From: Candidatus Electrothrix aestuarii
GTDB taxonomy: Bacteria; Desulfobacterota; Desulfobulbia; Desulfobulbales; Desulfobulbaceae
Assembly: GCA_032595685.2 (NCBI GenBank)
Contig: CP159373.1
Coordinates: 4,751,821 to 4,815,820 of the forward strand
DNA: 64,000 bases
Direction of reading: 5' to 3'
Under the pieces are notes generated by a model. That model had not been told where the DNA came from. It worked only from the letters and a program-made list of their open reading frames with translations, and did not search any database. Position 1 is the stretch's first letter, and each line of letters opens with the position of its first letter. Positions 528 to 45,138 of this stretch are shown one piece after another. The position numbers were made by a program, and so were the translations under genes.

Positions 528-1580
528 CTAAAATGAAAGAGAAACCATCTCCCCAAAGGTAATGATCCCTCGAACCATCTCCAGACTTTTAGCACTTTCC
601 ACAGCTTCGTCAAAGGTATCAAGGGTAAAGCGATGAGAAACCAGGTCGGAGACAATAATAGCCTCTTCCTTAATCAATTGAAGACATTTTTTAAAGTCAG
701 CCGGTGTCGATGCGTAGGTTCCTGTCAGGGTGATTTCCTGATGATGAAGCCAACGAGGGTCAATCTTCACCTCTGTGTCTGGAGCAGCCCCGAATATATT
801 GCACACGCCACCTCGGGCAACCAGCTTCAGGCAATCTTCAATCACATCAGGAATGCCGATGGAGATAATAACCACATCAGCTCCTCTGCCCTCAGTGATA
901 CGCATCACCTCATCATGGAGATTACCCGTTTCCGAGTTAATCAGATGATCCGCTCCCATTTGCCCGGCCATTGCTAAACGTGTATCAACGATATCAGCCA
1001 CGATGACTTCGCATCCGGACCATTTGGCTGTTTTCAGATGCATCAGGCCCATAGATCCACCGCCGATCACCAGCACCGTCTGCCCTTCCTTCATCCGATT
1101 TGCCCGAGCTGCGGCAAAGGTACAGGAAAGGGGCTCTGCCATCACTGCATCTTCAAAGGAAATCTCATCATCAAGTTTAATCAGCCCGCCGACATTCAAT
1201 ATTTCTTTGGGAACGCGTACGTATTCGGCAAAGGCTCCGTCCAGGCCATGCCCAATCCCTAAGGACTTTTCGCAGAGATTATAGCGTTTTTGACGACAGT
1301 AATAACATTGTCCACAGACAGCCATAGGATACACTGCAACTGGCTCTCCAACGGAAAACCCCACAACGCCTTCACCAATGGAACTGATTTCTCCTGATAT
1401 ATCCTGACCAAGGATGGCAGGGAGTTTTTCGGTCAACCCCTCGCCGAGCATGGTTTTTACATCTTTTCCGCAAATTCCAGCAACTTTTGTTGCAACAACA
1501 ACTTCGCCTGGACCGGCAACCGGATCTGCATAATCTTCAATACGGATATCATCGGCACCGTAAACAACAGCAGCTTTCAT
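528..1580 (-). CDS. Zinc-type medium-chain dehydrogenase (sorbitol/threonine dehydrogenase-like)
   Basis: The 350-residue protein has the medium-chain dehydrogenase layout. The N-terminal catalytic domain carries the structural zinc cysteines (CGQCYYCRQKRYNLC), and the Rossmann domain has VLVIGGGSMGLMHLKTAK. The EPLSC segment typical of polyol and threonine dehydrogenases is present. Such enzymes oxidise secondary alcohols with NAD(P)+ in the cytoplasm. Oddly, the usual GHE motif that supplies the catalytic zinc histidine reads GQD (ILGQDISG), so the histidine ligand is a glutamine. The neighbours do not identify the substrate. The gene is separated from the WecA-like gene by about 100 bp and could be cotranscribed with it. 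Confidence 0.85.
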   Translation of the reverse strand: MKAAVVYGADDIRIEDYADPVAGPGEVVVATKVAGICGKDVKTMLGEGLTEKLPAILGQDISGEISSIGEGVVGFSVGEPVAVYPMAVCGQCYYCRQKRYNLCEKSLGIGHGLDGAFAEYVRVPKEILNVGGLIKLDDEISFEDAVMAEPLSCTFAAARANRMKEGQTVLVIGGGSMGLMHLKTAKWSGCEVIVADIVDTRLAMAGQMGADHLINSETGNLHDEVMRITEGRGADVVIISIGIPDVIEDCLKLVARGGVCNIFGAAPDTEVKIDPRWLHHQEITLTGTYASTPADFKKCLQLIKEEAIIVSDLVSHRFTLDTFDEAVESAKSLEMVRGIITFGEMVSLSF

Positions 1581-1860
1581 AATAAACGGTTAAGGTTGAG
1601 GGTTCTGAAGGAAAAGGAGGTTATCCCTGCCAAGGGATGCAGGCAAGAAAAATTTCATCGTTCATCCAATAACCACCGGCAAAAAACTATGTACTGACAA
1701 AAGAGTGATCAAGAAAGCAGAGCACTCTCTTATTCCAGATATAACCAAACCAGACTGGAAATTCAACAGGAATTGAGTAAAACCTTATAAAGAGCAAAGA
1801 AAAGAAACAATCAGAGTAGAAACTTTCAGGCAGGATGCCGCAGAAGAAAAGCGGCCTGAA

Positions 1861-1902
1861 CAAAAAAAGAAAAGGGCTTCAGTAAAGAACTTCCTGAAGC
1901 CC
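1861..1902 (-). terminator. Rho-independent terminator downstream of tRNA-His
   Basis: A perfect 9-bp stem (GGGCTTCAG at 1874-1882 with CTGAAGCCC at 1894-1902) is followed on the minus strand by a T-rich run at 1861-1873. It lies just 3' of the tRNA gene and would end its transcript. The 1581-1860 stretch beyond it holds no gene I can support. Confidence 0.8.
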
Positions 1903-1913
1903 CTTATATATTA

Positions 1914-1990
1914 TGGGGTGAGCGATGGGACTTGAACCCACGACCTCCGAGGCCACAACCCGGTGCTACCACCAGCTGAGCTACGCTCAC
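1914..1990 (-). tRNA. tRNA-His (anticodon GTG)
   Basis: Read on the minus strand, the acceptor stem GTGAGCG pairs with CGCTCAC. The anticodon arm CCGGG-TTGTGGC-CTCGG presents GTG, and the T arm GTGGG-TTCAAGT-CCCAT is intact. The 3' CCA is encoded. A G lies immediately 5' of the acceptor stem (1991), opposite the discriminator C, which is the hallmark of tRNA-His. A terminator follows. Confidence 0.95.
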
Positions 1991-2060
1991 CACATTCACA
2001 TCTGTTGTGAGAGGGGTATATACCCTTTCAGAAAGATTTTGGCAAGGAGAAAGTCACCTC

Positions 2061-2714
2061 TCAGCTAAGTTCTTTACTGCAATGTTTGCAGACCTTGGCC
2101 CGAGCCTTAATCAGCTCCGCACAGTAAGGGCATTCACGGAGAAAATGGTTAGCTAAAATCTTATTAATTGCCAGATTGATATCCTGCTCCAAGTGGGTAT
2201 CAGTAAAATTATGATTCCGCAAGACCTCAATACAGGAGAGATCATTGAGGTCAACCAATAAAGAAGCTGCCCGTTTCCTGTCACTGATATTGGCTGCATT
2301 ATCGGTAAGCAGAAAGAGTACCGGCTCCAAGTCCTTGGCCTCAACGCAGGTATCCAGCTTGGCAACAGCCTCTTTCTCTGATTGATAGCGGGCATTCTGT
2401 TGTTTCAGGGCCTCCACATCCACAATGCTTCCGGTAAAGGCGGCTTTCCCCGCAACCATCATATTATAGCTTTCCTTACTATCGGGAAGCTCCATGTGAC
2501 GGTATGAGCCCACATGTCCGTACTGATTTTCTATGTGTTCCCAGCCATTCACAAACAAAGAACACTCATCATTCAGGCAGATAAACAGGAACTCTGAGCC
2601 CCAACCAAGCCCATCTCCCACATGCATGGGCGGCGCATGGCAGAGGGTCAATTCAGTCTTACAATGGGGACAGGTGTGCTTTTCATCAAGATAAGCAAGA
2701 GCTCGTTTCAACAT
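2061..2714 (-). CDS. Hypothetical protein with N- and C-terminal zinc ribbons
   Basis: The 217-residue soluble protein has a CPHC motif near residue 16 with a partner cysteine pair. It ends in a second ribbon, CPYCAELIKARAKVCKHC, in the last 25 residues. The middle is helical and charged, and a stretch around residues 135-185 resembles HEAT-like helices. No catalytic motif is visible. Double zinc-ribbon proteins often bind nucleic acid or partner proteins, but nothing here proves a role. It is flanked by tRNA-His downstream and the pheA-tyrA fusion upstream, on the same strand but with a gap over 100 bp, so it is probably its own unit. Confidence 0.7.
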   Translation of the reverse strand: MLKRALAYLDEKHTCPHCKTELTLCHAPPMHVGDGLGWGSEFLFICLNDECSLFVNGWEHIENQYGHVGSYRHMELPDSKESYNMMVAGKAAFTGSIVDVEALKQQNARYQSEKEAVAKLDTCVEAKDLEPVLFLLTDNAANISDRKRAASLLVDLNDLSCIEVLRNHNFTDTHLEQDINLAINKILANHFLRECPYCAELIKARAKVCKHCSKELS

Positions 2715-2878
2715 ATATTAACTCCAATAGTGAGATATTTGTTTTTTCTGGTCATCATGGTCCGCTTCACTTGATGCGGCAGGCAATTACGGCTTTTTAA
2801 AACAAAGAGACTCTAAGCACAATACTTCCCTGCGTCAACAACGATATCCTCTTCATGTCCACGTTGCCCGTTAAACCG

Positions 2879-4612
2879 TTAAATAATCGCACCGAGCACC
2901 TCATCCACAGCCTTGGCCTGCTCCATACGGTTACGGAGAAAAGGCTCGGTCAGATGTTCACCGTTTTGCTCCATGACCCTACATAATTCCTGAATTCCTT
3001 CCTGGTTCCCCTGATCTGCGATGGAAACCACCTGATGCAGGTATTGAGCAAAGTCATGGACAATCTTACGGCTTTCTCCAGAGGTGGACATGATCTCGGC
3101 ATAGGTCCTCGGGTTCTGGGAATGCACCCGAGCCATAGCCAGGATAGGATACAAGGAGGTCAGGGTGCAATGGGAGGCCAGGTCTTCCGCCGTGATGCCG
3201 TTTTCCTCCAGGGTCATGGCCAGGGCCACAGAAATGACGGTGGGTAGCTTCTGCCCTATTCCCATCAGCAGATCATGCTTGGTTGCAGAGTCCTGATAAA
3301 TACTTGCACCGTGTTTATAGAGAAAGGCCTCGAACTCGGAGCAGAAACGCCCGCTACGGCCTGTACGCACCACAATGGCGTTTTTATCCTTCATGGTTGC
3401 AGCCTGCGGCCCCCAGAGATTATGCACCAGCATCACCTCGACCCCCTGCCCTGTTACTTCCAAGGCCGTTTCAATTGTGGTCTCTGACTCACCGGCCAGC
3501 AGGATCAGGGCCTTACCATCCTCAATCAGCGGTCCATATTGTCGGATGGTTTCCGCTGTAAAGGAGATGGGAACACAGACCACCACCACGTCCACCTGAG
3601 GGATCATCTCCTCAGGCCGAAGTTCGGTGCTGCGGCCAGTCATCAGGGCTTGATAGCCCTCATGCTCCAAGCGATCAGCAAACCAGGCACTCATGGCCCC
3701 AGTACCGATAAAGCCAAAGGAGTTGATATACTTCGGCCGCATATCCACCCGAGGGAAACAGCCGAGCAGGCGCATGCGGTTGCGCTGCCCGATAATCCGC
3801 TCCTCTATAGCTGTCACAGCATCCTGCATAGCCCGGTCTTCGATATGCCCTTCCGCTTCAATATAGATTTGCAGCTTCTGGGACTTCACATCGTTTTCCG
3901 AGCTCATATCCAGGATATTAATGCCCTGGCGGGAGAACTCACCAAGTATATCCACCAGCAGCCCGACCCGATCATCAAGGGCTCCGGTGATAAAGGCGGT
4001 GGCGTCATAGCCGGTGGGCTTGGGGAGCTCACGCCCCAGGACGGCATAACGGGTCCGGTTATGAGGAGCAACCTCCCGCTCAATGATATGGAGGCCCAGG
4101 GCACTCAGCAGCTCAGCCGTGGCAATGACGCCGTGATTCCTCAGCCCCTGCCCCTGGATTCGTCCAACAGCCTGTTTCAGGTCATGTACTGTGGTCAACG
4201 CAGCATTGGGAAAACCGCCGCAGATATACTCTTCGCATTGGCGAAACACTGCCCGTTTACCCAACACCACCTCAAGCTCATCAGCCTGCACATCCGGGGC
4301 AAAGACACCCAGGGAGAGGTTGGAGGGCAGGACGATATTATCCAGCCAATACCCTTCCTTCACCTGCTCGAAGAGGCGGAAGTACTGCTTATTCTCTCCT
4401 TGGCGGGTGTTATATATCGGAACAACAACCTGTTCCACCTCTCGGGACAAAAAGGCATCCAGAAGGGCTCCAGAGTGCGGATAGAGTTTGATATCCGCCT
4501 GAGGCGCGTAGCCGATGGCTGCCTGCCAGGCATGGGATTGCTCGGGACCAAGGGTACCAAGGCACATCGTGTGTTCTGCTGTTGTTTCGGACATAACAGA
4601 TGGTCGTCTCAA
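2879..4612 (-). CDS. Prephenate dehydratase / ACT / prephenate dehydrogenase fusion
   Basis: The protein joins three parts. The N-terminal dehydratase-like domain begins CLGTLGPEQSHAW and carries NRTRYAVLG, the TRF-type catalytic motif with Tyr for Phe. An ACT regulatory domain follows (GALDDRVGLLVDILGEFS). The C-terminal prephenate dehydrogenase has the Rossmann motif GFIGTGAMSAWFAD. It would supply both phenylalanine and tyrosine precursors from prephenate; no chorismate mutase domain is visible. I place the start at a TTG (4612) because AAGGAG lies 7 nt upstream. An ATG at 4594 is the alternative but has no ribosome site. The open frame continues upstream through a terminator hairpin and should not be used as coding. 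Confidence 0.82.
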   Translation of the reverse strand: MRRPSVMSETTAEHTMCLGTLGPEQSHAWQAAIGYAPQADIKLYPHSGALLDAFLSREVEQVVVPIYNTRQGENKQYFRLFEQVKEGYWLDNIVLPSNLSLGVFAPDVQADELEVVLGKRAVFRQCEEYICGGFPNAALTTVHDLKQAVGRIQGQGLRNHGVIATAELLSALGLHIIEREVAPHNRTRYAVLGRELPKPTGYDATAFITGALDDRVGLLVDILGEFSRQGINILDMSSENDVKSQKLQIYIEAEGHIEDRAMQDAVTAIEERIIGQRNRMRLLGCFPRVDMRPKYINSFGFIGTGAMSAWFADRLEHEGYQALMTGRSTELRPEEMIPQVDVVVVCVPISFTAETIRQYGPLIEDGKALILLAGESETTIETALEVTGQGVEVMLVHNLWGPQAATMKDKNAIVVRTGRSGRFCSEFEAFLYKHGASIYQDSATKHDLLMGIGQKLPTVISVALAMTLEENGITAEDLASHCTLTSLYPILAMARVHSQNPRTYAEIMSTSGESRKIVHDFAQYLHQVVSIADQGNQEGIQELCRVMEQNGEHLTEPFLRNRMEQAKAVDEVLGAII

Positions 4613-4663
4613 AATAAAGCTCCTTACCCGGAGCCATGTTGTGCAATACAGTGCTGTGTAATA

Positions 4664-4701
4664 GAAAAAGCCCCGCCTCAGAAATGAGAAGAAGCGGGGC
4701 T
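4664..4701 (-). terminator. Rho-independent terminator or attenuator upstream of pheA-tyrA
   Basis: An 8-bp GC-rich stem (AGCCCCGC 4669-4676 with GCGGGGCT 4694-4701) is followed on the minus strand by TTTTTC. It sits about 100 bp past the stop of the upstream membrane-protein gene and about 50 bp before the pheA-tyrA start. It can therefore end the upstream operon or attenuate the aromatic gene. Confidence 0.7.
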
Positions 4702-4803
4702 CTACTGTACGTGATTTTTTTCTCTGCCGCAAGAAACAGGACAGAATTCTGCACAGGAAGTGCTTAAAAAGTGAACTTACCTATATCATTTCAAAATGAT
4801 ATC

Positions 4804-5478
4804 TCATTCCAACTCTGCTTCTTGAGGAGAGGATGACTGTTCCTCAGCAGCAGGAGGTGGTGGTGAAGAAAAAGCATCCTCTTGCTCCTTCTCCTTCAGC
4901 CTCTTGCGGATGGCCAAAGCTAACAGCATCGGCGGCAGTTGTCGTAACGGAAGAAAAACACAAAATACGCCGAAACTGAGTATAAACAAACTGTTGGAAT
5001 ATCGCGACAGATCAAAAAGAGATGTAACATTAAGGAGCGATACCGACATTAGAACTATTCCGTATAATTCTATCAAGATAAGTAATATTGCCATAATCAG
5101 TTCTGTACATGAGACTTTGACCTCTGCGCTTCCATTGTTCTCATCTATATACGTCCAAGCATGACGAATCCATTCAACTGAAGCCACTCCGTCAGTTACA
5201 AGCTTTTGATATATCGGACGATGCTTCTTTCCACAACGTATTCCTGTAACTGTACGGAATATTTCCTGACGTAAGGCTTCGTCGTAGAACTCTGCTTCTT
5301 CAGGAATACCAATCAGTTCCTCCCGCGCCTTTTTCAATTTCTCAACTCTATTCTTCGAGAAAAGTTCCTTCCATGCTGCGACTTCCTTGTATTTAGACAG
5401 CAGCCATCCGATTGCTGCGGCAACAAGAATAACATATATGGCAACAGGATCAGTTATCTTTGCAAATAGTGCTTCCAT
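4804..5478 (-). CDS. Hypothetical three-helix membrane protein
   Basis: The 224-residue protein has one membrane segment near the N-terminus (residues 12-28), a soluble charged middle (30-120), and two more segments at about 125-150 and 160-190. A charged tail rich in E, P and S ends it. No family is recognised. The gene starts 16 bp after the Rpn nuclease gene and is followed by a terminator, so it is the last gene of the bioD-plsY-aminotransferase-Rpn run. A membrane partner of the nuclease is possible but not shown by the sequence. Confidence 0.6.
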   Translation of the reverse strand: MEALFAKITDPVAIYVILVAAAIGWLLSKYKEVAAWKELFSKNRVEKLKKAREELIGIPEEAEFYDEALRQEIFRTVTGIRCGKKHRPIYQKLVTDGVASVEWIRHAWTYIDENNGSAEVKVSCTELIMAILLILIELYGIVLMSVSLLNVTSLFDLSRYSNSLFILSFGVFCVFLPLRQLPPMLLALAIRKRLKEKEQEDAFSSPPPPAAEEQSSSPQEAELE

Positions 5479-5494
5479 AACTCACAAAAAAAAT

Positions 5495-6403
5495 TTAATT
5501 TCTCTTCCCCTCCAACTCCTTCACAACCGCAAGCTCAAGTCCGGTAAAGCGCGCGACTTTTTCCACCGATTCTCCCTCTGCAAGCATTTCCCTGGCTATT
5601 TCTAAGGCACGCTGCTCTCGCCCCTCTTCTCGCCCTTCGGCCCTTCCCTCTTCCCGACCTTCTATCCTCCCCTCATCAAACGCAGTATCAAGAGAGTTTT
5701 TCAGGTCCCGGTAATACTTCAGGCTATTCTCATAGGAAAGCACCTGATCCGGAGTGAAACGGGCAATCTCCGCAGCAGCAAAGAGCTGCTCAAAAACCTC
5801 TTCGCGAAGTTTGTCCGGTATTCTATCCAGCCGATTCAGGTTCCTGATAACGTACAGCCACTTTTCAAAACGAGTCTCCAGCTCATCCAGTTCCTTGGTG
5901 AACTTGGGCATCTCCAGGTAGATAAAGGCCAACTTGTCGTAGAACACTTGCTTGGTTTCAATATCCGACAACTTGATATCATAGCGGTACTTATCCGGCT
6001 GATTCTTATCTTCATCAAAGACAAAATCCAGAATGGCCACCGTATAGACAGCCTTGAGTTCGAAATTCCAGTCGCCTCTTTCCGCCTGCTCACGAATGGG
6101 AAAGGTGGAATAATAGAGGGCACGGTCTTTGAAAAAATTCTGTTTGCTCTTCTGTAATTCGACGATAAATTTCTCGCCCCGTTCGTTCTCGCAGTACAGG
6201 TCGAAAATGGCCTTGCGGTCAAGATCGGTATCGCCGAGCTGCTCGGTTTTCAGATAGGTCAGATCCCGGATCTCCCCCTGCTCCTCTTTGAGCAGCTCAT
6301 TAAGAAAATCCAGTAAAAGATTCTTATTCGGCTGTTCCCCGAAGATCTTTTTAAAGCCGTAATCCGTGAACAGATTAATATAACGTTCTTTCGTCGCCAT
6401 CAT
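5495..6403 (-). CDS. Rpn-family PD-(D/E)XK nuclease / transposase-like protein
   Basis: The 302-residue protein starts with RYINLFTDYGFKKIFG, the family signature. The catalytic core is intact: FDLYCEN (Asp68) and FIVELQ (Glu82, Gln84). The C-terminal tail (about 240-265) has short E-G-R repeats typical of Rpn tails, followed by a helix that ends in VKELEG. Rpn proteins are DNA endonucleases linked to RecA-independent recombination and, in some cases, phage restriction. The gene lies 32 bp downstream of a degenerate paralogue of the same family, indicating tandem duplication. Confidence 0.85.
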   Translation of the reverse strand: MMATKERYINLFTDYGFKKIFGEQPNKNLLLDFLNELLKEEQGEIRDLTYLKTEQLGDTDLDRKAIFDLYCENERGEKFIVELQKSKQNFFKDRALYYSTFPIREQAERGDWNFELKAVYTVAILDFVFDEDKNQPDKYRYDIKLSDIETKQVFYDKLAFIYLEMPKFTKELDELETRFEKWLYVIRNLNRLDRIPDKLREEVFEQLFAAAEIARFTPDQVLSYENSLKYYRDLKNSLDTAFDEGRIEGREEGRAEGREEGREQRALEIAREMLAEGESVEKVARFTGLELAVVKELEGKRN

Positions 6404-6434
6404 CTCAACTGAATTCTTTCCAATTCCCAGAAAA

Positions 6435-7298
6435 TCACTGCCGTTTCTTATGCTCCAAGGCCTTCACAACCGCAAGCTCCAGACCGGAGAAACTCGCTAT
6501 CTTATCCAGGGCCTCTCCTTCACCCAACATCTCTAAAGCAACATCAATCTGTTGGTTTTGCAGCCCCTTATCCCAGCCTTCAGCAAATTCTGTATCCAGT
6601 GATCGCCTCATATTGCGTGAGTAATTCAGACCTTTTTCATAAGCAAGCAGTTCTTCTTTGGTAAAAAGGGCGATCTCCGCAGCCTCAAAGAGCTGCCCAA
6701 AGATTTTATCCTGCAACTCTTCCGGGATAGAATCAAGGCGATGCAGATTCGCGATAACATATAACCATTTATCCAGACGAGTCTCCAGTTCATCCAAGCC
6801 CTTGGTGAATTTAGGCATTTCCAGATAAATAAAGGTCAGTTTCTCATAACCAGCTCGGCTGCTTTCAATACTGGATAATTTCACATCATAACGGTATTGC
6901 TTTGGGCAATCTTTATCCTCGTCAAAGGCGAAATTAAGAATCGCCACGGTATAGACAGCCTTCAGACCAAAATCCCATTTTTTTCGCCTTTCCTGCTCCC
7001 AAATAGGCAAGGAAGAGCAGTAGTGCGCCCGACCTGAAAAAAAATTATATTTGCTTTTCCGCAAGCCGACAATAAACTCTTCTCCCTTCTCGTTTTCACA
7101 GCACAGGTCAACCGTATCCTTTCGGAAAAGAGCGAGCTGTTCCGTCTTCAGATAGTGCAAATCCTGTATCTCACCTTGTTCCTCTCTGAGCAATCCATTA
7201 AGAAAATTTAGCAGCAGCTTCTTATTTGCGTGATCACCGAATATCTTCTTGAATCCATACTCAGTGAACAGATTAATGTAACGCCCTCCGGTCTCCAT
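6435..7298 (-). CDS. Rpn-family protein with lost nuclease motif (paralogue of its neighbour)
   Basis: The 287 residues align end to end with the next gene (RYINLFTEYGFKKIFG start, AVVKALEHK end). The active-site Asp is kept (VDLCCEN, Asp64), but the partner motif reads FIVGLRKSK instead of FIVELQKSK, so the catalytic Glu and Gln are Gly and Arg. The E-G-R tail repeats are shortened. The protein is probably catalytically dead, perhaps acting as a regulator or DNA-binding partner. Its ATG overlaps the stop of the aminotransferase gene by one base (TGATG), so translation is likely coupled to that gene. Confidence 0.8.
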   Translation of the reverse strand: METGGRYINLFTEYGFKKIFGDHANKKLLLNFLNGLLREEQGEIQDLHYLKTEQLALFRKDTVDLCCENEKGEEFIVGLRKSKYNFFSGRAHYCSSLPIWEQERRKKWDFGLKAVYTVAILNFAFDEDKDCPKQYRYDVKLSSIESSRAGYEKLTFIYLEMPKFTKGLDELETRLDKWLYVIANLHRLDSIPEELQDKIFGQLFEAAEIALFTKEELLAYEKGLNYSRNMRRSLDTEFAEGWDKGLQNQQIDVALEMLGEGEALDKIASFSGLELAVVKALEHKKRQ

Positions 7299-8944
7299 CA
7301 GTCTTCCTCCATAGAAACAGATGGATCAGCCCCTGCATTTTCTACCGCCTTGCGCAGAAAATAGGACATCATCCCGGTTGGTCTTTGGCATTCTCCCATA
7401 AAACAGACCTGAATATAATTCCTGGCAAGCAGATACTCACTCCTATAACTCACCAGAATGCCCTCTGCCGCCAAATGATCGCCCAAGGTCTGCGATGAAA
7501 GCGATGGCGGCAGAGCAATCGTGGTGACATGCGGGGCACGACATTGTTTGTCCGCCAGCACGGGAAGCCCGAGCACCTCAAGTTCATCACGGAGTTCCTC
7601 GGACCATTGCCGGACTTTCTCAAAATGCGTCAGCCAGTTACCCTTTTCCACTGCTGTGATCAGGGCCTCAACCGCATTAGATGAAATGGTAAACGGAATT
7701 CCCTGCTTGCTCTCGTAATAACTGAGGTCAAAATATCTCGAAAGACGCTGCTCTCCAGAAACAAGATCATCACGGGAGAAAACAAGGGCCAAGCCCGGCA
7801 GAGAACCGATGCCCTTGCCGCTGGTTGCCGTGGCAAGATAGACTTCATGCAGATCAACCGGGCAGGAGCCGATACTACTGATTGCATCCAGGCAAAGCCT
7901 CAGCCTATGTTCTCGGCAAAGGCGACGCAGCATCTCAAGATTATTCAGCACCCCGGTGGAGGTCTCGCAATGAACCGCCCAGACCCATGCAAGCCTCGGG
8001 GTATCTCGAAGAGCAGCCTCCAGAGCTTCTCTGGAAAAAGTCTGCCCCCACTCTGCCTCTACCGCAATAAAATCCAGTTCTGCCCGGAGAGCATGATCCC
8101 GCAGGCGCTCGCCGAACTCACCGTTGACCAGTACCAAACCCTTTCCCGACAGCAAAGCCAGATGCGCGGCCACCACATCATTGGCCAAGGTCCCGGAACC
8201 AGCCATAATCTGGACCTGATCGGTGTTCAGCTTGTTACTCAACATCTTGCGGAAGGCTGTAACGCGCTCCACAAAGGAGGTATTGCGATGGGAAATCGGC
8301 CTCCCGGAGTTGACCTCCAGCACGGCATTCGCAACGGCAACCGGACCGGGCAGGTAGTTAAACAGGACCTGCTCCCCCTCAGCCCCTCTGCTGGAATGCA
8401 GCACCTGGGACTTCTGCTTCAGCCTGAGTGCCGAAGCAAGATCAATATACATAGGTTGGTACAGGGCATCACCCGGGCCCACCAGCGGACCAAAAGGCTG
8501 AAAACCCAAATGTCTGTACAGCCGTTCCTGACGGGTTGTGCCGGAAATCACAGCGATATCGTATCCGCCCTGCAAGGCCATATAAAAGGCCTTTTTCATG
8601 ATACCGGCAAAGATGGCAGTATTGCGATTCTCTTTTCTGACCGCCAGTAGCCGATACTCAAGGATTGATTTGAAGGGCGGCAGATAAGAATCCAGATCCT
8701 CCAGCTTGGCATCAAGTGACAAGGGCCTCTTGTCCCGCAGGGCAATCATTCCCAACAGGTCCTCACCATTCAGACAGATCACATAGGTATTTTCCTGGTG
8801 AAACTTATCCACTAGGCGGCCACGTGCGTTCTCCTCGTGCTGGGGTATCTCCTCCACAAAGGTCTGGTAATTCAGCTCATGGATCTGCTCAAACTCCCAC
8901 TCCTCGGAAGCGACTTTAAAGGTCAGAGAAGAGGTGTCTGTCAT
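7298..8944 (-). CDS. GNAT acyltransferase-class V aminotransferase fusion
   Basis: Residues 10-170 form a GNAT-like domain. The segment YRHLGFQPFGPLVG resembles acyltransferases of the FeeM/autoinducer-synthase type. Residues 190-530 form a class V PLP aminotransferase related to alanine-glyoxylate aminotransferases, with LPGPV near 198, GSGTLAND near 249 and the PLP lysine at about 377 (ATSGKGIGSLPG). The fused enzyme could transaminate a small keto acid and acylate the product, but that is inference. It follows plsY by 43 bp and overlaps the next Rpn gene by one base, placing acyl chemistry next to glycerol-3-phosphate acyltransferase. Confidence 0.8.
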   Translation of the reverse strand: MTDTSSLTFKVASEEWEFEQIHELNYQTFVEEIPQHEENARGRLVDKFHQENTYVICLNGEDLLGMIALRDKRPLSLDAKLEDLDSYLPPFKSILEYRLLAVRKENRNTAIFAGIMKKAFYMALQGGYDIAVISGTTRQERLYRHLGFQPFGPLVGPGDALYQPMYIDLASALRLKQKSQVLHSSRGAEGEQVLFNYLPGPVAVANAVLEVNSGRPISHRNTSFVERVTAFRKMLSNKLNTDQVQIMAGSGTLANDVVAAHLALLSGKGLVLVNGEFGERLRDHALRAELDFIAVEAEWGQTFSREALEAALRDTPRLAWVWAVHCETSTGVLNNLEMLRRLCREHRLRLCLDAISSIGSCPVDLHEVYLATATSGKGIGSLPGLALVFSRDDLVSGEQRLSRYFDLSYYESKQGIPFTISSNAVEALITAVEKGNWLTHFEKVRQWSEELRDELEVLGLPVLADKQCRAPHVTTIALPPSLSSQTLGDHLAAEGILVSYRSEYLLARNYIQVCFMGECQRPTGMMSYFLRKAVENAGADPSVSMEED

Positions 8945-12696: not shown

Positions 12697-15648
12697 TCAC
12701 CCCGCCTCTGCATTCTTCTCCGCTTCCACTTGCCGAGCCACCCGCCCCACAACTTCCTGACATTTTTTGAGCATTTTATCGTTATCGCTGTCCGGGTAGT
12801 TTTCCTTGCCCCGGTCCAATACGGTTTTCGCCATATTGCGCATGGAATAGGGTTTCTGGTCGTATTCTTTATACTGCTCAAGGAATGTTGGTTTATCAAT
12901 AATTGAGGTGGATATTTCTTTCAGGTGCTCGTACAGGGCTTCCGGGTTTTGCAGAAGGGTATAGATGTGTTGGAGTCCTTCGTAGGTGGTCCAGAGGTAG
13001 TCATACCTGTTGCCGTCTTGGTCGTGCTCTATGTCGGAATAGAGAAAGGCGTTGGCTGAAGAGAGGATTGCTAGAGTTTTCCACCAAATACTATCTTTCT
13101 CTCCATCAAGACTTGATACTATTTTTTGTACTGAATCCTCTATTCTTTTGAATGTTGCTTCATTTGGATTTCTGTAATGATAAACAGATAAACTCCTACT
13201 TCCACGATACTGCTCAGTCCTTTCACTTATAACCTTGAAGAGAAAATATGCTCTGCTACGTACCAGATTTTTCCCGCTGATACACTTGAAGCCAAAGATA
13301 TGTTCATGCCATAATTGCCCGTACCAATTATTCCTCCAAAATATGTTTGCTGAATGTGAAAGAGCCTGTAACTGTACTGATGATTTAACGTATAAATCAT
13401 GTTCAAAATCATATTCAAATAGGGTCTCTGTACTGTTGAGAGAGTTAAGAATTGAATAAATTGATAAATTTTCTATAATCATTCCCCATCTGAGTAAAAC
13501 ATCAAGCCAGTGCTTTTCATCTTTTTCTTTTTTCAGTCGATGAATAATTGATTTACCAAGTAAATCTTTGCAAACTATTGCTTCATCAATGGTATACACA
13601 GCAGCAACATAATCAGCTATCCCATCGACTTGATTAACAAACAGCTCGATAGCTGCCAAGAACTGCAAGCCGTAACGCTCCCTGTCCAGCAGCACCGGCA
13701 CAGCCTCCTCAATTTTTTCCTGAAAAGAATTATAGAGTATCGGAGGACTGGAGATAAAATAAAGGACGTTCTCCAAACACCGACCTTCCTGCACATCGTA
13801 TTCTCCCTTCTGGATGGAATGAAAATATTGATCAAATAATTCGTGTAGCGCATCCCGCGTTGCCTCCACTTTTCCTTCACGATCCTCAGAAAGAAAATAC
13901 TGTCGAACCAGCTCGAATCCTTTATTTCTTCGTGACCTCTTCTCGACGTCTTCAGATCGCTCATTCAACCGATCAGCTCTGGCGATATACTCCACACATA
14001 CCCTTGTCCAGTACCCCAGATCAGAATCCTTAATCCCGTACTCCTCAGAATCAAGCATTTTCATCACCAGAATATGGAAATACTCATTCTCCTCGCTCTC
14101 TTCTTTTAGCTCCTTCACCTCATTCTGAAAATTCTTGAGAATATCCGTGGTTGCCGCCTTATTCAAACTGAAAAATAACAGCAGGGTCTCGCTCCACTTA
14201 GGAAATAACGCCTTAGTCAATCGCCCCAGTATCTCTTCTTTCAGTATCGCCGCTGCCTGGAAAAAATTTTCAATCACCCGCCGGTAAATATAACGGGCTG
14301 TCAGGTATTCCTGAAAGCTGAGGTGAGAGAACTGAATCCGTTCCTCCTCTGGCTCATGAAGCAAGCCGGTTCTGGTCAAATAAAAACTGAGCAGAGATTC
14401 CGCATGTTCCGGCTTAATCGTTTGCCAGCCCTCTTTTCTCTCCTGAATGATATCTTTAATAATATCGAGCAACTCCTGGCGACTCACAACAATAACAGCA
14501 TCATCATCCTGTTTATGTTTGTCCTTGTCTTTTCCTTTGGCCTCAGCGCATTGCAGCTTATAGGCGATACCTTCCAGCAATTTGATCTTATCCTCAAAGG
14601 TCCACTCATCATAATGCTCGTCCGGGTACATCTCCTTATGAAGACGACGGGTAATATCAATATGCTCAATATAGGCATCCACCATATATTCATAGGCCTT
14701 GGCTCTGGAATGGGGCAGTTTCCCTTTGGTGGTGTGGATATGGGCCATCATGGTCAGGAAGACCGGTCGCCTCTTGAGCACGGCCAGGCTTTTGATCTTT
14801 TCTATGGAATCACGAAACTCATCCGCCTTTTTCTGCACGGTTTTCGGATTCTCTTCCCGCAGAGCAAACCATTTTTGGCAGAACTCACCGGTCTGCTGCT
14901 TATTAAAAGAATCTACGTAATACAGGGCAGGGAGGTGTTTTTGCGCTCTCTCTTCTTTTTTATCAAGGTAGGCAGTAAACGGAACCCGTTCCAAACCCGC
15001 AGGCCGACTGGTTACCAGCAGGTAATTGTCCTTGTGAAAGGCCATAAAGTGGTTTATGACAAATCTCCTGATTCGCAAGCGCGTTTTCCATCCTCCGACC
15101 TCATCTACACCGTCCAGGATAATGAAACACCAGCCTTGTTGCAGATAAAACTCTAAGTGTTCTCTGGAGATCTCATACTCTAGAATCCGGCTCTGTGATG
15201 CAACAAACTGATCCAGAAGAGCCTCGGGAGAAGAAATGCTGCTCAACTGGTAATCACGCAATTTAAAATACAGAGGAATCCTTCGACCGCATTGCTTGGT
15301 AAAGCTTGTTAGGGCCTTGCTGGTCAACAGATTAATGATCATCCGGGAAACCGTAGTCTTTCCGCTACCCGGTCTTCCAGAAAGGACAATATGTTGATGT
15401 TGCCTGAGAATTTGAAGAAGTGAAAAGGTTCCCTCTTCATCCTCCCAGTCTCTGCTTTCGCTCAACTCTTCTCTGCTGAACCTGAGAGGAACAAAGATAT
15501 CCCGAAGTGATATCTTTTTATCTTCTCCCAGATCCATAAGCCCGAGGGCTTCATGAAAACTGTAGACCTCATGCAATTTTTCCTGATAGACCTGCCGGAA
15601 TTCGCGTTGAGCAAGCGTTTCCTGAAAGGAGGGGGAGACGTTATGCAT
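12697..15648 (-). CDS. NACHT-family STAND NTPase (candidate antiphage sensor)
   Basis: The protein of about 983 residues has a short N-terminal region, then a NACHT-type NTPase with Walker A GRPGSGKTT at 91-99 and Walker B FIILDGVDE at 175-183. The acidic DGVDE is typical of NACHT rather than AAA proteins. A winged-helix-like and long helical C-terminal region (about 400-980) would be the sensor. No membrane segment or nuclease motif is evident. Known bacterial NACHT proteins defend against phage. I start it at the ATG at 15648 rather than the TTG two codons upstream; GGGAG lies 9 nt away. Its start overlaps the stop of the KAP gene by 8 bp (ATGCATAA), so the two are translationally coupled. 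Confidence 0.82.
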   Translation of the reverse strand: MHNVSPSFQETLAQREFRQVYQEKLHEVYSFHEALGLMDLGEDKKISLRDIFVPLRFSREELSESRDWEDEEGTFSLLQILRQHQHIVLSGRPGSGKTTVSRMIINLLTSKALTSFTKQCGRRIPLYFKLRDYQLSSISSPEALLDQFVASQSRILEYEISREHLEFYLQQGWCFIILDGVDEVGGWKTRLRIRRFVINHFMAFHKDNYLLVTSRPAGLERVPFTAYLDKKEERAQKHLPALYYVDSFNKQQTGEFCQKWFALREENPKTVQKKADEFRDSIEKIKSLAVLKRRPVFLTMMAHIHTTKGKLPHSRAKAYEYMVDAYIEHIDITRRLHKEMYPDEHYDEWTFEDKIKLLEGIAYKLQCAEAKGKDKDKHKQDDDAVIVVSRQELLDIIKDIIQERKEGWQTIKPEHAESLLSFYLTRTGLLHEPEEERIQFSHLSFQEYLTARYIYRRVIENFFQAAAILKEEILGRLTKALFPKWSETLLLFFSLNKAATTDILKNFQNEVKELKEESEENEYFHILVMKMLDSEEYGIKDSDLGYWTRVCVEYIARADRLNERSEDVEKRSRRNKGFELVRQYFLSEDREGKVEATRDALHELFDQYFHSIQKGEYDVQEGRCLENVLYFISSPPILYNSFQEKIEEAVPVLLDRERYGLQFLAAIELFVNQVDGIADYVAAVYTIDEAIVCKDLLGKSIIHRLKKEKDEKHWLDVLLRWGMIIENLSIYSILNSLNSTETLFEYDFEHDLYVKSSVQLQALSHSANIFWRNNWYGQLWHEHIFGFKCISGKNLVRSRAYFLFKVISERTEQYRGSRSLSVYHYRNPNEATFKRIEDSVQKIVSSLDGEKDSIWWKTLAILSSANAFLYSDIEHDQDGNRYDYLWTTYEGLQHIYTLLQNPEALYEHLKEISTSIIDKPTFLEQYKEYDQKPYSMRNMAKTVLDRGKENYPDSDNDKMLKKCQEVVGRVARQVEAEKNAEAG

Positions 15649-17050
15649 AGTCAATCACTCCCAGGTACCTGTTTAAAGTTGCCGAATCGTGGTCGTTCAT
15701 TGGAAACTGGAGAGAATCGGTAAAATGCCTTTTGAAATTTTCCAGAGATTCATAACGAGGCGAGATGTCTTTCATATACTCAAGTTCTTCTTTGTCCAAA
15801 CGGCCTGCGGAAACCAGCTCTTCATCCTCTGCATCACCCACTGGTTCCACCTCAACGGCAATCGGGTTGCGCAGGTATTCGTAAAACAGGCGTTCAACAT
15901 TACGATCCGGTGGATTATTCTGACAAACATTACTCAACGCTTCTACATAATCCGGGTGTCGTTCCAAAACAGTAAAGACAGGTTCACAGTATATGCGCAA
16001 ATAGTGAAACAGGGCTGCAATTTCAATCTCCAACCTGCTTTGATCATCTCCGGCAGCCCCTGACAGATTGATGAGTTCCCAATAGGATCTGAAGGAATTG
16101 AGGAAATTCTTTACTTTACGAGGATTCTTCTCCAGAATATCGGTAAGCAGCTTTGTCAGTCCGGCAGTGTCCGCATCCGGGAAATAGTCGCCGACAATCT
16201 CCTGGATCAATGCGGGATAGTTCTTGCTCAAAGGGATACGGATGATACTCTGAAAGAGTTTGTCCAGATAATCCTTGTGGATCTGATGATTCTCCAAGGC
16301 CCGCAGGACATTGACCTGATCCATGCCAAAGACGAAGATACAGTTGGAGGTGGAGAGATAGAGTTTGATCCCTTCAATCAGCTTGATGGTGTTGGTATCG
16401 GTACAACGGTCCAGGTCATCAATATAGACAACCAGAGCCTTATGCTCCTCTCCCAGGAGTTTATCGATGGCCTTCTCAAAAAGGAGGCGAAAACGTTGAG
16501 ATGAACTTTTGACTGCAAATTCCTTTGCCTCGTATTTTTCTCCGTACTTCTCAAGTGCTCCCGGGTCAACTTTCACCTTAGTCAGTTTATTGATGATACC
16601 GCTCAGGATATCAAGCCCTCCCCGCACACTCACATCAGCAAGTTTTTTTGCTTCCTCGCCTACTTGCGTAAAGAGATCGAAATTATCCCGGATTTCATGA
16701 AGCAAGCCAATGATAGGGTCGTTATCAAACTGGTGCTGCCAGGGATTGAACCAGACCGCCCGCATTTTGGTTTCATTCTCGCTGAACTCTTTAATCATTC
16801 TCTGAGTTTCCGAGTCAAGACGTTCCTCAACAGGACTTTCTGATAAGGGCAAAAGGACAGAAGAAACCCTCCCGCCGGTTCGGAAAAACAACTGACGCAT
16901 AATACTGGTCTTTCCTGTTCCCCAACCACCATATATGCCGATTGAAAAAGGAGGTTGGGCTTTTTCAATCAATTTGAGAAGCTGTTGAATAAAAGGCTCA
17001 TATCCTAAGGTGTCCACCAAGGTCCATTCATCATTGCTGTAGCGACTCAA
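15641..17050 (-). CDS. KAP-family P-loop NTPase
   Basis: The 469-residue protein has Walker A GGWGTGKTS at 41-49, the KAP-specific WFNPWQHQFD at about 100-109, and Walker B VVYIDDLDRC at 207-216, followed by FVFGMD. KAP NTPases are found in phage-defence and membrane-associated systems. This one shows no inserted membrane helices, so it is probably soluble. It begins with TTG, a choice supported by a strong AGGAGG 7 nt upstream. It is the first gene of a two-gene unit with the NACHT protein and lies 59 bp after the Fe-S protein gene. Confidence 0.85.
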   Translation of the reverse strand: MSRYSNDEWTLVDTLGYEPFIQQLLKLIEKAQPPFSIGIYGGWGTGKTSIMRQLFFRTGGRVSSVLLPLSESPVEERLDSETQRMIKEFSENETKMRAVWFNPWQHQFDNDPIIGLLHEIRDNFDLFTQVGEEAKKLADVSVRGGLDILSGIINKLTKVKVDPGALEKYGEKYEAKEFAVKSSSQRFRLLFEKAIDKLLGEEHKALVVYIDDLDRCTDTNTIKLIEGIKLYLSTSNCIFVFGMDQVNVLRALENHQIHKDYLDKLFQSIIRIPLSKNYPALIQEIVGDYFPDADTAGLTKLLTDILEKNPRKVKNFLNSFRSYWELINLSGAAGDDQSRLEIEIAALFHYLRIYCEPVFTVLERHPDYVEALSNVCQNNPPDRNVERLFYEYLRNPIAVEVEPVGDAEDEELVSAGRLDKEELEYMKDISPRYESLENFKRHFTDSLQFPMNDHDSATLNRYLGVIDYA

Positions 17051-17109
17051 TCCGGCACCTCCTATTGGATTGGTTTATATATAGAAATGGGATAATCCAA
17101 CGAATAGGC

Positions 17110-18357
17110 TCAAGTCCTATCCCCCTTCCGCATAAACCGTAAAGCAGCATTCTGCACAGACTGAGACAGCAGCACAGTCTTCACCGACCGCAGGGTCACG
17201 GCCTTATTGACCACCTTACGCAGCAGGGCCTGGATTCGGCTGGTCTGGTCGGCAAAAATATAATTCCCCAATTTTCCCATATGAATGGAGGATACATATA
17301 TTTTTTCTATGGAGTCCTCTGGAATGTAGGGTCGTTCAGGTCGAAGATGCAAAAAGCAGGAACTGCTTGGACAGAAACGGGCACAGACGCCGCACCCTAG
17401 GCAGACATCTTTTTTGACAACTGGTTTTTCTCCGCTGGTATCTATGGCGTCTACCGGGCAACGTTCATAACACTCGCCGCAAGAGATACAGGTCTGCGGT
17501 TCAATCTCGGCAATAAAGGCTGACGGACTGACCAAGCCGCTGCTTCCATACTTTTTATAGCCAAGCAGAAGATCGCAGCAACAGCCACAGCAGTTACAGA
17601 TCACAGCCAGCTCGCTCTTGGTATTATCGCCGATCTGCATCAAGCCGTTATCCATGCATTCCTTGACAATGCGATGGGCCTCTTCTTTGCTAATCTCTTT
17701 GGCAATGCCGTAGTCAGCCAGGTACCGTGCGACCTCGTTAAAGGTCAAACAGGCTTCCTGGGGGGCGGAGCAGGCCTGGCCCAGGTGTTCCATCTTATGA
17801 CGGCAATAACAGAGCCCTACCGTAATGCAGGTTGCATTATCAATGCCCACACTGACCCGGTCATGGGGAAGCACCTCAGCGCTCATATCCTCCAAGGCAT
17901 CCTCACCCGCATAAACCCGAGTAAAGGCTGGTTCCTGCACCGCACCGTGCTGCTGAACAAAATCGCCTTCCACCTGACAGTATTGATGGTAGAGCTCGGA
18001 GAGACGCTTTGCATCCAGCTTGCCATCTGTGCGCATCAGAGAAAACTCAACAAAGCCGAGCACAGGTGGAGCCAATCCGTACTTGATGCCGTCCTCCTTG
18101 GCAAAGGCATACACTACCCCCTTCCCGGCCAGCCGGTCCAGGATTTCACGGGCCTCATCAACACTCATCTTCCAGATCTTGGCCATTTTTTCTGCTGGCA
18201 CGATGCGCAGTGGCATGACAGAGCAGAGCTGCGCTTCCTCCTCTGAAACCAATTCTTTGAGTATCTCGATCAGGGTTACGGAGACAAAGGCGCCTGGAAC
18301 ATATTGGCCCAGTCGTTCCGCCATCCTACCGTAGCTATGATATTGTAAATGCCCCAT
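17110..18357 (-). CDS. Multi-cluster 4Fe-4S ferredoxin-type protein
   Basis: The 415-residue cytoplasmic protein has a winged-helix-like N-terminal half. A cysteine cluster follows (CYCRHKMEHLGQACSAPQEAC, then CNCCGCCC), and two classic ferredoxin motifs, CISCGECYERCP and CLGCGVCARFCP, sit in the last third. Such proteins carry electrons in anaerobic metabolism and are common in sulfate reducers. No partner oxidoreductase is adjacent. It lies just upstream of the KAP-NACHT pair on the same strand, but a defence role is not indicated. Confidence 0.8.
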   Translation of the reverse strand: MGHLQYHSYGRMAERLGQYVPGAFVSVTLIEILKELVSEEEAQLCSVMPLRIVPAEKMAKIWKMSVDEAREILDRLAGKGVVYAFAKEDGIKYGLAPPVLGFVEFSLMRTDGKLDAKRLSELYHQYCQVEGDFVQQHGAVQEPAFTRVYAGEDALEDMSAEVLPHDRVSVGIDNATCITVGLCYCRHKMEHLGQACSAPQEACLTFNEVARYLADYGIAKEISKEEAHRIVKECMDNGLMQIGDNTKSELAVICNCCGCCCDLLLGYKKYGSSGLVSPSAFIAEIEPQTCISCGECYERCPVDAIDTSGEKPVVKKDVCLGCGVCARFCPSSSCFLHLRPERPYIPEDSIEKIYVSSIHMGKLGNYIFADQTSRIQALLRKVVNKAVTLRSVKTVLLSQSVQNAALRFMRKGDRT

Positions 18358-25369: not shown

Positions 25370-25569
25370 CATGATACTCGATACGAATCTGTCGTGATAC
25401 CCGATGCGATTTTGCCGTTATACTTGATGCGATTCTGCCGTGATACTCGATACGATTTTGTCGTGATACTCGATGCGATTCTGTCGTGATACTCGATACG
25501 AATCTGCCGTGATACTCGATAAGATTCTGCCGTGATACTCGATACGAATCTGTCACGATACTCGATGCG
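25370..25569. repeat. Tandem array of 23-bp repeats (8 full units plus one partial)
   Basis: Units of the type CGTGATACTCGATACGAATC plus TGC/TGT follow head to tail with no spacers: 25370, 25393, 25416 and so on to 25554. More diverged units with the same period extend left to about 25305. Variation is concentrated at a few positions within the unit. The absence of unique spacers rules out a CRISPR array. The period is not a multiple of three, so coding is unlikely. Confidence 0.9.
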
Positions 25570-42314: not shown

Positions 42315-43756
42315 GTCAGCAATTATAAATTTGACAACGTACTATTTTATTTAACGAATATGTGTTATTGAAAGGCATGATCAATATCACACGAGTCCTC
42401 TGCTTATGCCTTCAAATACCAAAGAATTAACATTCGATACGTTTGTCAATCAGATCCATAGCATATTTGATGAACTCCCGGATTACCGGAAATTCAGCCC
42501 AAACCTCACATATTCAATGAAGGATGCGGCGTTAGGTGCGTTTTCCATGTTTTTCAACCAATCCCCATCATTCTTATCTCATCAGCGGGCAATGCAGCAG
42601 GCTCACGGGCATAATAATGCTCAAAGTTTGTTCGGAATAACACAGATCATGTCGGACAATCAGACCCGCAATCTTCTTGACACCCTTACTTCTGATAATT
42701 TTTATCCAATTTTTTCAGAAACTTTTGATCGGCTTGAAAGTGCTGGACACTTGGATCGTTATAGAGTGCTGGATGAATATTTGTTGGTTCCGATAGATGG
42801 TACAGAATTTTTTCGTTCCTCCAAAATACATTGTGAAAACTGTTCCGTTGCTCGTAACTCCAACGGAACGGTAAGTTATTCCCATAAGGTTCTTACCCCG
42901 GTGGTAGCTGCACCGGACAACAACAAGGTCATCGCTCTGGAACCAGAATTCGTCACCCCTCAGGATGGTTCAGCAAAACAGGATTGCGAGTTGAATGCTG
43001 CTAAGCGCTGGATTGAACGGAACTCTTCTTTATCGGCTCGAAAAGTTATCATCCTGGGAGACGATTTGTTTTCCAGAGGGCCGTTTTGCAACTTATTATC
43101 GGCACACAGTTTTCGTTTTATCCTGATTTGCAAACCCTCCTCACATACGACCCTTTATCAGTATGTTGCCGAACTTGAAAAGAAAGATGGTATTACAGTA
43201 AGTTCTCAAAGAAAATGGAACGGAAAATTTCACGAGCTTCATACTTATCGTTATGCTAATGACTTACCCCTCAAGCAGGGGGATGACGCTCCTTCTGTCA
43301 ATTGGGTTGAGTTGACCGTCATTAACACCAAAACACAAGAGGTTCTGTATAAAAATTCTTTTATCACTGATTTTAAAATAGACAGAACCAATGTTCAATC
43401 TATAGTACAAGCCGGAAGAACTCGATGGAAGGTGGAAAATGAAAATAATAATATCCTGAAAACAAAAGGCTACCATTTAGAGCATAATTTCGGGCATGGC
43501 AATAAATTTCTCTCGAACACCTTACTGACTCTCAATCTGGTCGCATTTTTAGCTCACACATTCCTGGAGCTTGTTGATACAAAATACAAAGCCGTCAGAT
43601 CGGTCTTGTCTGTCCGAAAGACCTTTTTAATGACCTGAAAGCATTAACCAGATATTTATTTTTTAACAGTTGGTCTCAGCTGATAGACTTTATGTTTAAA
43701 CAGCTTGAAATTAAAAATCTATCGACCTGATAATATTAAAATTTAAAATTACTGCC
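42315..43756 (+). mobile_element. ISNCY/IS4-like DDE insertion sequence
   Basis: Imperfect 18-bp terminal repeats match at 15 positions: the left end reads GTCAGCAATTATAAATTT and the right end, reversed, reads GGCAGTAATTTTAAATTT. TGTGAC flanks both sides (42309-42314 and 43757-43762) as a 6-bp target duplication. One transposase gene fills the element. It lies at the left edge of the island behind oplA. Confidence 0.8.
42406..43730 (+). pseudogene. DDE transposase with C-terminal -1 frameshift
   Basis: The 0 frame gives 410 residues with SYSHKVLTPVV, an acidic DGTEFF, ILGDDLFSR, and a stop at 43638. The next frame continues naturally with NDLKALTRYLFFNSWSQL to a TGA at 43728-43730. The break is at a run of five T (ACCTTTTTAATG). 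This is either one lost T or a programmed -1 slip. The family is an IS4-like/ISNCY DDE transposase. The catalytic core is intact, so activity depends on the frameshift. Confidence 0.65.
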
Positions 43757-45129: not shown

Positions 45130-45138
45130 GGGAAAAAT

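Follow-up and report, generated by a model that had tools for sequence, protein, structure and literature searches.

The window, a stretch of 64,000 nucleotides of the Candidatus Electrothrix aestuarii genome, contains a gene for a KAP-family P-loop NTPase (15641-17050, minus strand) followed on the same strand by a gene for a NACHT STAND NTPase (12697-15648), and these genes belong together. The pairing of KAP and NACHT is close to certain, their two-component nature is well supported, and the pair is apparently an undescribed two-gene module. We think it somewhat probable that the two proteins form an immune system of the NLR (nucleotide-binding, leucine-rich repeat) type, in which an effector-less receptor would act with an RdrA-like KAP ring and membrane damage is a first guess for the killing step. 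An antiphage role is what we infer from the NLR fold, from a hypervariable and apparently exchanged sensor, and from the presence or absence of the cassette as a whole.

Conservation of the KAP-NACHT pair

A two-row KAP alignment (the window protein and one from a Magnetococcus plasmid) was used to scan the genome collection and hit 62 stretches, 14 of them encoding KAP relatives. The closest, from Electrothrix, a Nitrospirota and two Magnetococcales, all have a NACHT gene right behind them, and a fifth close KAP, in Venteria (L040), stops at a contig end. KAP-profile searches covered 150 Nitrospirota-class genomes, 48 Magnetococcales, 42 Thiotrichales (the order of Venteria) and 57 relatives of the window genome, and brought in further loci. 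Intact family KAPs scored at least 397 bits and unpaired KAPs at most 176, while the scores of broken or cut family KAPs lay between 33 and 478. Paired KAPs were the source of the profiles, and this in itself favours a gap between the two classes. Single-sequence searches of plasmids, phages, viral contigs and 395 genomes of the phylum gave, the window's own genome apart, no relative above 31% identity among the matches listed.

Counting as testable each family locus with downstream DNA, a same-strand NACHT gene lies directly downstream of the family KAP in 20 of 20 loci from 18 genomes or records: the window, L028, L031-L034, L054, L055, L078-L082, L084 and L085 (15 loci) and L104-L108 (5 loci). 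The family KAPs of L040 and L083 end at contig ends. L054 and L055 were found first via NACHT and again via KAP, and L108 was found via its NACHT, with no more of the KAP than its last 61 residues. The 11 testable loci that were found with a profile to which they had not contributed are all paired (L078-L082, L084 and L085, found with profile A7; L104-L107, found with A12). The hosts are cable bacteria and their relatives, Nitrospirota, Magnetococcales and Thiotrichales, and the spacing between the genes runs from an 82-bp overlap (with longest-frame starts) to a 16-bp gap. One copy of the pair is on a plasmid, and a contig of E. aarhusensis has both genes, at 82 and 76% identity, with the same neighbours as in the window. 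Some copies are damaged: insertion sequences break up both genes of L028, the L055 NACHT has a frameshift, and the KAP of L084 is in pieces.

The pairing is specific to this family and holds in both directions. Among 22 remoter KAPs whose downstream flank spans 1 kb or more (L014 and L016 were excluded because their flanks are too short), the NACHT profile found a downstream NACHT in none; two have a NACHT upstream (L017 and L086), FGE-fused in both cases and with a reverse transcriptase in L086. For the reverse test, NACHT-profile searches were made in the 48 Magnetococcales and 42 Thiotrichales genomes, scoring in most genomes the best 17 or 20 first-look candidates. Ten NACHTs scored at least 674 bits (the next at 243 and 209), and a KAP lies upstream of all ten, in two orders; two intermediate NACHTs (G590 and G583) have no KAP in the available DNA. 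Conservation of the adjacency in relatives had been set beforehand as the test of the original prediction, and the adjacency is conserved. The adjacency is not a product of chance, since the pairing recurs in every one of the 20 loci.

Trees were built for 13 paired and 22 unpaired KAPs and for 13 paired and 12 unpaired NACHTs (midpoint-drawn, leaving aside L028, L083, L084 and L104-L108). The paired rows form one clade in each, with support of 98/96 for KAP and 96/97 for NACHT. Four terminal groups are common to both trees: the window with E. aarhusensis, two Nitrospirota, Venteria with a second E. aarhusensis pair, and six Magnetococcales.

In the window the first gene of the pair encodes a KAP of 469 aa from a TTG start, with a Shine-Dalgarno sequence, AGGAGG, at 17058-17063 on the minus strand, the strand of all features of the pair given below. 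The second encodes a NACHT of 983 aa from an ATG preceded by GGGAG; an alternative TTG start at 15654 would give 985 aa. The KAP stop and the NACHT start overlap by 8 bp at 15641-15648 (ATGCATAA), so both genes and their overlap are where they had been predicted. The source genome is a single contig of 5.11 Mb with one match per window protein at E up to 0.001. Pfam scans of four window neighbours gave an Fe-S protein, an HD protein, a pyridoxal phosphate (PLP) enzyme and one protein without assignment. We considered an operon extending to the upstream ferredoxin-type gene (17110-18357) and gave up the idea, because that gene was not found in the interval from dGTPase to KAP in G641 or E. aarhusensis.

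Within the genus, 4 of 8 genomes have a family KAP, the window's own included, and one of the genomes without it is 69% complete. The gene order in G641 is trpB, a 150-aa gene, NACHT, KAP, dGTPase. The cassette is absent from G637, where the same flanks enclose 104 bp as against 4,652 bp in G641, and KAP and NACHT are therefore present or absent together. In G636 and G638, neither of which has a family KAP, no dGTPase lies near trpB, so these regions are silent on the empty site. The 150-aa gene, which by eye we take to resemble a PIN-domain protein, adjoins the cassette site of two Electrothrix genomes (L118, 5617-6069; L104, 4251-4703), and none was seen there in the window. No third conserved gene was seen among the neighbours of 10 pairs.

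A compact two-gene unit with overlapping frames, present or absent at one site and once carried on a plasmid, could also be a selfish or addiction cassette, that is, a toxin-antitoxin-like unit securing its own upkeep. We judge this very improbable, as the two proteins, at 469 and 983 aa, greatly exceed the size usual in toxin-antitoxin pairs, copies broken by insertion sequences or frameshifted persist, and the variable sensor described below would be left unexplained.

Two further arrangements of NACHT genes were seen in passing. In L107 (1-6076) a KAP, the family NACHT and a second, remoter NACHT stand in a row on one strand. In L023 a P-loop protein gene (7643-8914) lies upstream of a NACHT gene (4197-7655) and overlaps it, and in L026 another (3943-5244) lies upstream of a NACHT gene (627-2978) with one gene between. 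These P-loop proteins, of 423-433 aa and from genomes of different families, gave weak SieB-like, AAA and STAND matches only, and are perhaps another NTPase-NACHT pairing.

The NACHT protein and its hypervariable region

The window NACHT protein matches the NACHT family PF05729 with 39.9 bits (cut-off 26.7, E 5.1e-10). A motif scan located Walker A, GRPGSGKT, at residues 91-98 (15355-15378), Walker B, LDGVDE, at residues 178-183 (15100-15117) and an NLR-type winged-helix motif, FSHLSFQEYL, at residues 440-449 (14302-14331), near which there is a weak profile match to NLRP3. The structures nearest to the predicted model are NLRP3, NOD2 and NLRC4 (Z 19.9-17.9 in the first rows, within residues 7-637), and within residues 8-589 the core reaches Z 19.9 to NLRP3 and 19.4 to NOD2. 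The model thus predicts an NLR-type core composed of NACHT, a winged helix with the conserved His and a helical domain. A Pfam scan found no leucine-rich repeats (LRRs) in the window NACHT; they were found in its relatives L054 and L084.

The position of Walker A leaves a short N-terminus, residues 1-90 (15379-15648), with little room for an effector domain, and a contact with KAP there is possible. Walker A begins at residue 91 in the window protein and at 91-126 across all 13 paired NACHTs measured. Of 11 unpaired NACHTs with a clear motif (a twelfth sequence gave no motif match), nine have it at residue 157 or beyond and two at residues 17 and 27. No effector domain was found in either window protein by Pfam, PADLOC or NCBIfam scans, in agreement with the claim that neither carries a known one.

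Comparison of alleles places a hypervariable, putative sensor region in the C-terminal half of the NACHT protein, at residues 701-860 (13069-13548). Between the window and G642 the TrpB, BioD, PlsY, dGTPase, ferredoxin-type and aminotransferase proteins are 97.8-100% identical and KAP is 96% identical, against 83.5% for NACHT. Within NACHT, residues 151-550 are identical, with synonymous divergence (dS) of 0-0.04 except for 0.16 at 501-550; residues 551-700 are 73-80% identical; and residues 701-850 fall to 28-34%, with nonsynonymous divergence (dN) of 0.59-0.77 and dS of about 1 or beyond. Blocks of raised dS also occur at NACHT 51-150 and KAP 201-400. This block pattern of identity and dS points to segment exchange between alleles. 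Across four Electrothrix NACHT alleles the mean pairwise identity falls to 0.14-0.33 over residues 721-840, from about 0.9 at either end of the protein, and dips less deeply at 201-240 (0.72) and 561-720 (0.57-0.73). The KAP and NACHT cores are under purifying selection: in the comparison of the window with E. aarhusensis, KAP has a dN/dS of about 0.08 and NACHT one of about 0.11 overall, with NACHT residues 721-840 19-31% identical. A conserved core and a conserved KAP joined to a fast-changing receptor end look like an immune receptor with a constant signalling partner.

Outside the Electrothrix type, the C-terminal half carries in-frame tandem repeats or LRRs in 10 of 12 paired rows. Tandem DNA arrays lie in this half in 10 of 14 paired NACHT rows (L032-L034, L078-L081, L054, L084 and L085), with best periods of 6-132 bp that are all multiples of three; two of the carriers are LRR proteins (L054 and L084), and the L034 array is weak (score 57). 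The L082 array lies outside the C-terminal half, and the window, L031 and L055 have no array, L055 having a borderline LRR match. One of 13 KAPs has a marginal array. Long in-frame repeats were noted in the NACHT genes of L032 (10652-10919, 12 bp), L033 (10641-10989, 12-48 bp) and L085 (4309-4559, 6 bp), with repeat types LDRDLDRYLAR and SLSRSLS and a copy number that is possibly variable. The window's variable region has a weak 12-bp repeat of 2.2 copies (13394-13419), too short to weigh.

The same variability could instead serve self/non-self recognition or inter-bacterial conflict, with the NACHT sensor separating kin from non-kin in the manner of fungal NLRs. Allelic hypervariability is typical of allorecognition genes; several of the hosts, the cable bacteria and Venteria, are filamentous. 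However, the pair also occurs in Magnetococcales, which are not known as filamentous bacteria, a plasmid carries one copy, and no third gene, for secretion or a surface protein for example, recurs beside the 10 pairs. The fungal precedent is that of het-d and het-e, NLRs which PMC12222747 places in self/non-self recognition. We hold this alternative to be unlikely.

The KAP protein and the proposed mechanism

The window KAP protein matches KAP_NTPase PF07693 with 89.8 bits (cut-off 20, E 2.5e-25), and the motif scan recovered each of the motifs that had been described as intact: Walker A, GGWGTGKT, at residues 41-48 (16907-16930), WFNPWQ at residues 100-105 (16736-16753) and Walker B, DDLDRC, at residues 211-216 (16403-16420). 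In a fold search with the predicted model the top six rows are all RdrA (Z 16.9-15.2, spanning model residues 1-460 at most), followed by Cdc6/ORC at Z 14.6; identity to RdrA in these rows is only 12-13%. The best PDB chain by sequence profile is likewise an RdrA, from S. suis (E 1.3e-5); this match is short, covering profile residues 202-266. The PADLOC candidate models PDC-S20, shown without a cut-off, score E 1.9e-24 and 85 bits, the best stretch being 66-230 of 464.

The model places a helical insertion between strand 2 and Walker B, at residues 107-200 (16451-16732), with four longer helices at 112-125, 145-156, 163-177 and 183-199; part of it, 126-160, has a predicted local distance difference test score (pLDDT) below 50. 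In our reading this insertion would be the equivalent of the crown through which RdrA contacts its partner. A hydrophobic stretch falls in the insertion region in 14 members. Hydropathy was scanned as the Kyte-Doolittle mean over 19 residues, and no transmembrane segment was found in the window KAP (best mean 1.28), in the 13 paired KAPs (highest mean 1.75) or in 23 distinct unpaired KAPs (none above 1.75). The original prediction was therefore right that the protein has no membrane insertions; that this is unusual for the family finds no support among the KAPs compared. A hydrophobic crown helix was considered as a membrane segment and rejected. Its hydropathy is high for these proteins but does not reach the level of an ordinary transmembrane helix, and membrane insertion is therefore no more than a guess.

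In the mechanism we propose, NACHT is the receptor, and its C-terminal half, centred on residues 701-860, would recognise a molecule derived from or altered by an invader. Binding would release the NACHT-winged-helix core and allow it to oligomerise as in NLRs. The response would be made in trans by the co-translated KAP, an RdrA-like AAA+ protein that may be expected to form a ring, with its crown helices (107-200) or its lid docking the NACHT oligomer, and the assembled ring would disable the infected cell. The KAP ring is taken as the response arm because the NACHT lacks a known effector while a KAP is present in every testable locus. Membrane damage is the first guess for the killing step because the crown sits where other KAPs carry membrane helices. 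Within this NLR-KAP scheme the main alternative is a nucleic-acid target, since QatA is described in passages of PMC13279940 as binding DNA and looking heptameric or octameric.

The two roles could also be reversed, with the KAP ring sensing or loading nucleic acid or a phage protein and NACHT acting as the oligomerising executor that kills. QatA, with its DNA binding and its apparently heptameric or octameric form, would suit such a part, as would the RdrA ring ATPases, which according to passages of PMC9994260 dock as funnels onto their partner enzyme. We regard this arrangement as unlikely, given that the most variable part of the pair is the NACHT C-terminus whereas KAP is 96% identical between near relatives, and that NACHT has no known effector domain with which to kill.

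Several findings weigh against an immune system of this kind. The models are of middling confidence (pLDDT 70.8 for KAP from 14 sequences and 66.8 for NACHT from 15, with NACHT residues 731-836 below 50). Deeper branching differs between the trees: in that of KAP the Nitrospirota join Electrothrix and G597, which is a long branch (support 82/91), and in that of NACHT they join the Magnetococcales (93/93). Viral contigs gave no relative of either protein by the patterns tried, two two-row-alignment scans included, and the phage records gave no NACHT relative and two weak KAP matches. In the variable region dN/dS is below 1 where computable, and positive selection on the sensor is not claimed, because dS is near saturation. 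Tandem arrays also occur in 4 of 12 unpaired NACHTs; they are therefore not special to the pair and were rejected as a mark of the paired family alone. The neighbours of 10 pairs differ between lineages and, judged by their first residues with Pfam checks on a few, resemble housekeeping genes, and of 10 neighbours scanned in PADLOC eight gave nothing and two gave weak matches (TIR-like, E 2e-4; PDC-S01, E 2e-5).

A defence-island setting is not supported by this evidence, and the proposed enrichment near defence genes is not seen among these neighbours. Of the two-component antiphage system originally predicted, the two-component part holds (20 of 20 loci, 10 of 10 in reverse, one clade in each tree), while the antiphage part is backed indirectly. 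Housekeeping-like neighbours would suit a non-immune signalling or regulatory pair, acting in stress or the cell cycle and kept adjacent through operon inheritance. This we find quite improbable: the pair is present in four distant groups while its neighbours differ, it is lacking in close relatives, and it has a hypervariable region.

Whether the pair represents a new kind of bacterial NLR system is a more tentative matter, and we consider it possible but doubtful. Such a system would combine an effector-less NACHT with a separate RdrA-like KAP ring and renew its sensor without a reverse transcriptase, through allele-segment exchange in Electrothrix and, elsewhere, through in-frame tandem repeats or LRR units. 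If so, it would be a bacterial counterpart of NLR diversification in plants and fungi. If the pair works by the mechanism proposed above, it would be a case of an NLR receptor recruiting an AAA+ ring in trans, joining NACHT receptors and RdrA-type KAP rings, which have apparently been studied apart. The natural alleles, with near-identical cores and different sensors, are then suited to studying the ligands of bacterial NLR sensors and the way these sensors diversify. The setting of the pair also suggests that defence modules may sit alone among housekeeping genes and be missed by searches for defence islands.

Two features elsewhere in the window were noted. A low-GC stretch at 44494-46330 has a sigma-factor-like gene, a small gene and a gene that by eye resembles one for an ImmA/IrrE metallopeptidase; it is preceded by a transposase-like gene at 42406-43638 and is probably a mobile insert. 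A 23-bp tandem repeat of 8.5 copies lies at 25372-25566.

Comparison with known systems

No KAP+NACHT two-gene system was found among the literature matches listed, a scope that leaves the main bNACHT survey outside and absence from print unproven. The nearest descriptions place KAP or NACHT proteins in other settings, the closest being the DGR targets taken up below. Passages of PMC8195603 report that KAP can stand in for the STAND NTPase in effector-associated domain (EAD) systems, and parts of PMC10853773 describe an operon of Orc/Cdc6 and KAP, the Orc/Cdc6 being sometimes fused to NACHT. Unlike the membrane KAPs (PifA-like), the window KAP lacks transmembrane helices.

In conflict systems diversified by diversity-generating retroelements (DGRs), KAP NTPase or NACHT proteins fused to lectin-type domains are DGR targets, according to passages of PMC10907252. 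KAP or NACHT proteins with a diversified sensor are shared with the window pair, but there each NTPase has its own FGE/lectin domain and a reverse transcriptase adjoins. Pfam found no FGE domain (PF03781) in either window protein, and found it in L017 and L086. L086 (G468, 1063-7926) encodes KAP-FGE, a reverse transcriptase and NACHT-FGE, a DGR-type conflict system, and in L017 (5236-10621) genes for NACHT-FGE and KAP-FGE stand close together. These two loci differ from the window pair in having NACHT upstream of KAP, and both fall outside the paired clades.

QatA of QatABCD is, like the window protein, a KAP NTPase, and it is the best NCBIfam model match of the window KAP. Membership was rejected at 95.7 bits against a cut-off of 600, and unlike in QatABCD the scanned neighbours are not QatB, QatC or QatD.

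The CARD-NLR system LypABC resembles the pair in that an NLR-like ATPase has its partners in separate genes, as the window NACHT has KAP. In the passages of PMC13236601 concerned, LypB is the NLR-like ATPase, LypA consists of a helical bundle and a trypsin-like protease domain and may also bind ATP, and the CARD-NLR clade is separate from bNACHT. Partners in separate genes are therefore not new as a trait on their own. KAP and NACHT are absent as whole words from the main text of that paper, and Pfam scans of the neighbours found no protease or nuclease partner gene of the CARD-NLR kind beside the window pair.

The bNACHT plan, as given in PMC12169576, holds sensor, NACHT and effector within one protein. 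The window NACHT is like these proteins in scoring above the Pfam cut-off, in its predicted NLR core fold and in its variable C-terminal half, with LRRs in some family members; it is unlike them in lacking an N-terminal effector (90 residues precede Walker A) and in having a neighbouring KAP gene in every testable locus. It also differs from a bacterial NLR sensu stricto (NACHT plus LRR) in lacking C-terminal LRRs, which L054 and L084 have.

The closest relation of the window KAP is to RdrA of RADAR, from which it nonetheless differs in several respects. Its partner is a NACHT and not the adenosine deaminase RdrB, none of which is encoded among the four neighbours scanned. It lacks the C-terminal helical lobe of RdrA, ending at residue 469 with matches that stop near RdrA residue 500, and in our own reading of the predicted model it lacks the three-helix insertion after sensor 1. 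What it shares, by predicted fold and profile, is an RdrA-like KAP/AAA+ core with a helical insertion between strand 2 and Walker B, in the place where RdrA has the crown that, according to passages of PMC9994260, makes nearly all of its contacts with RdrB.

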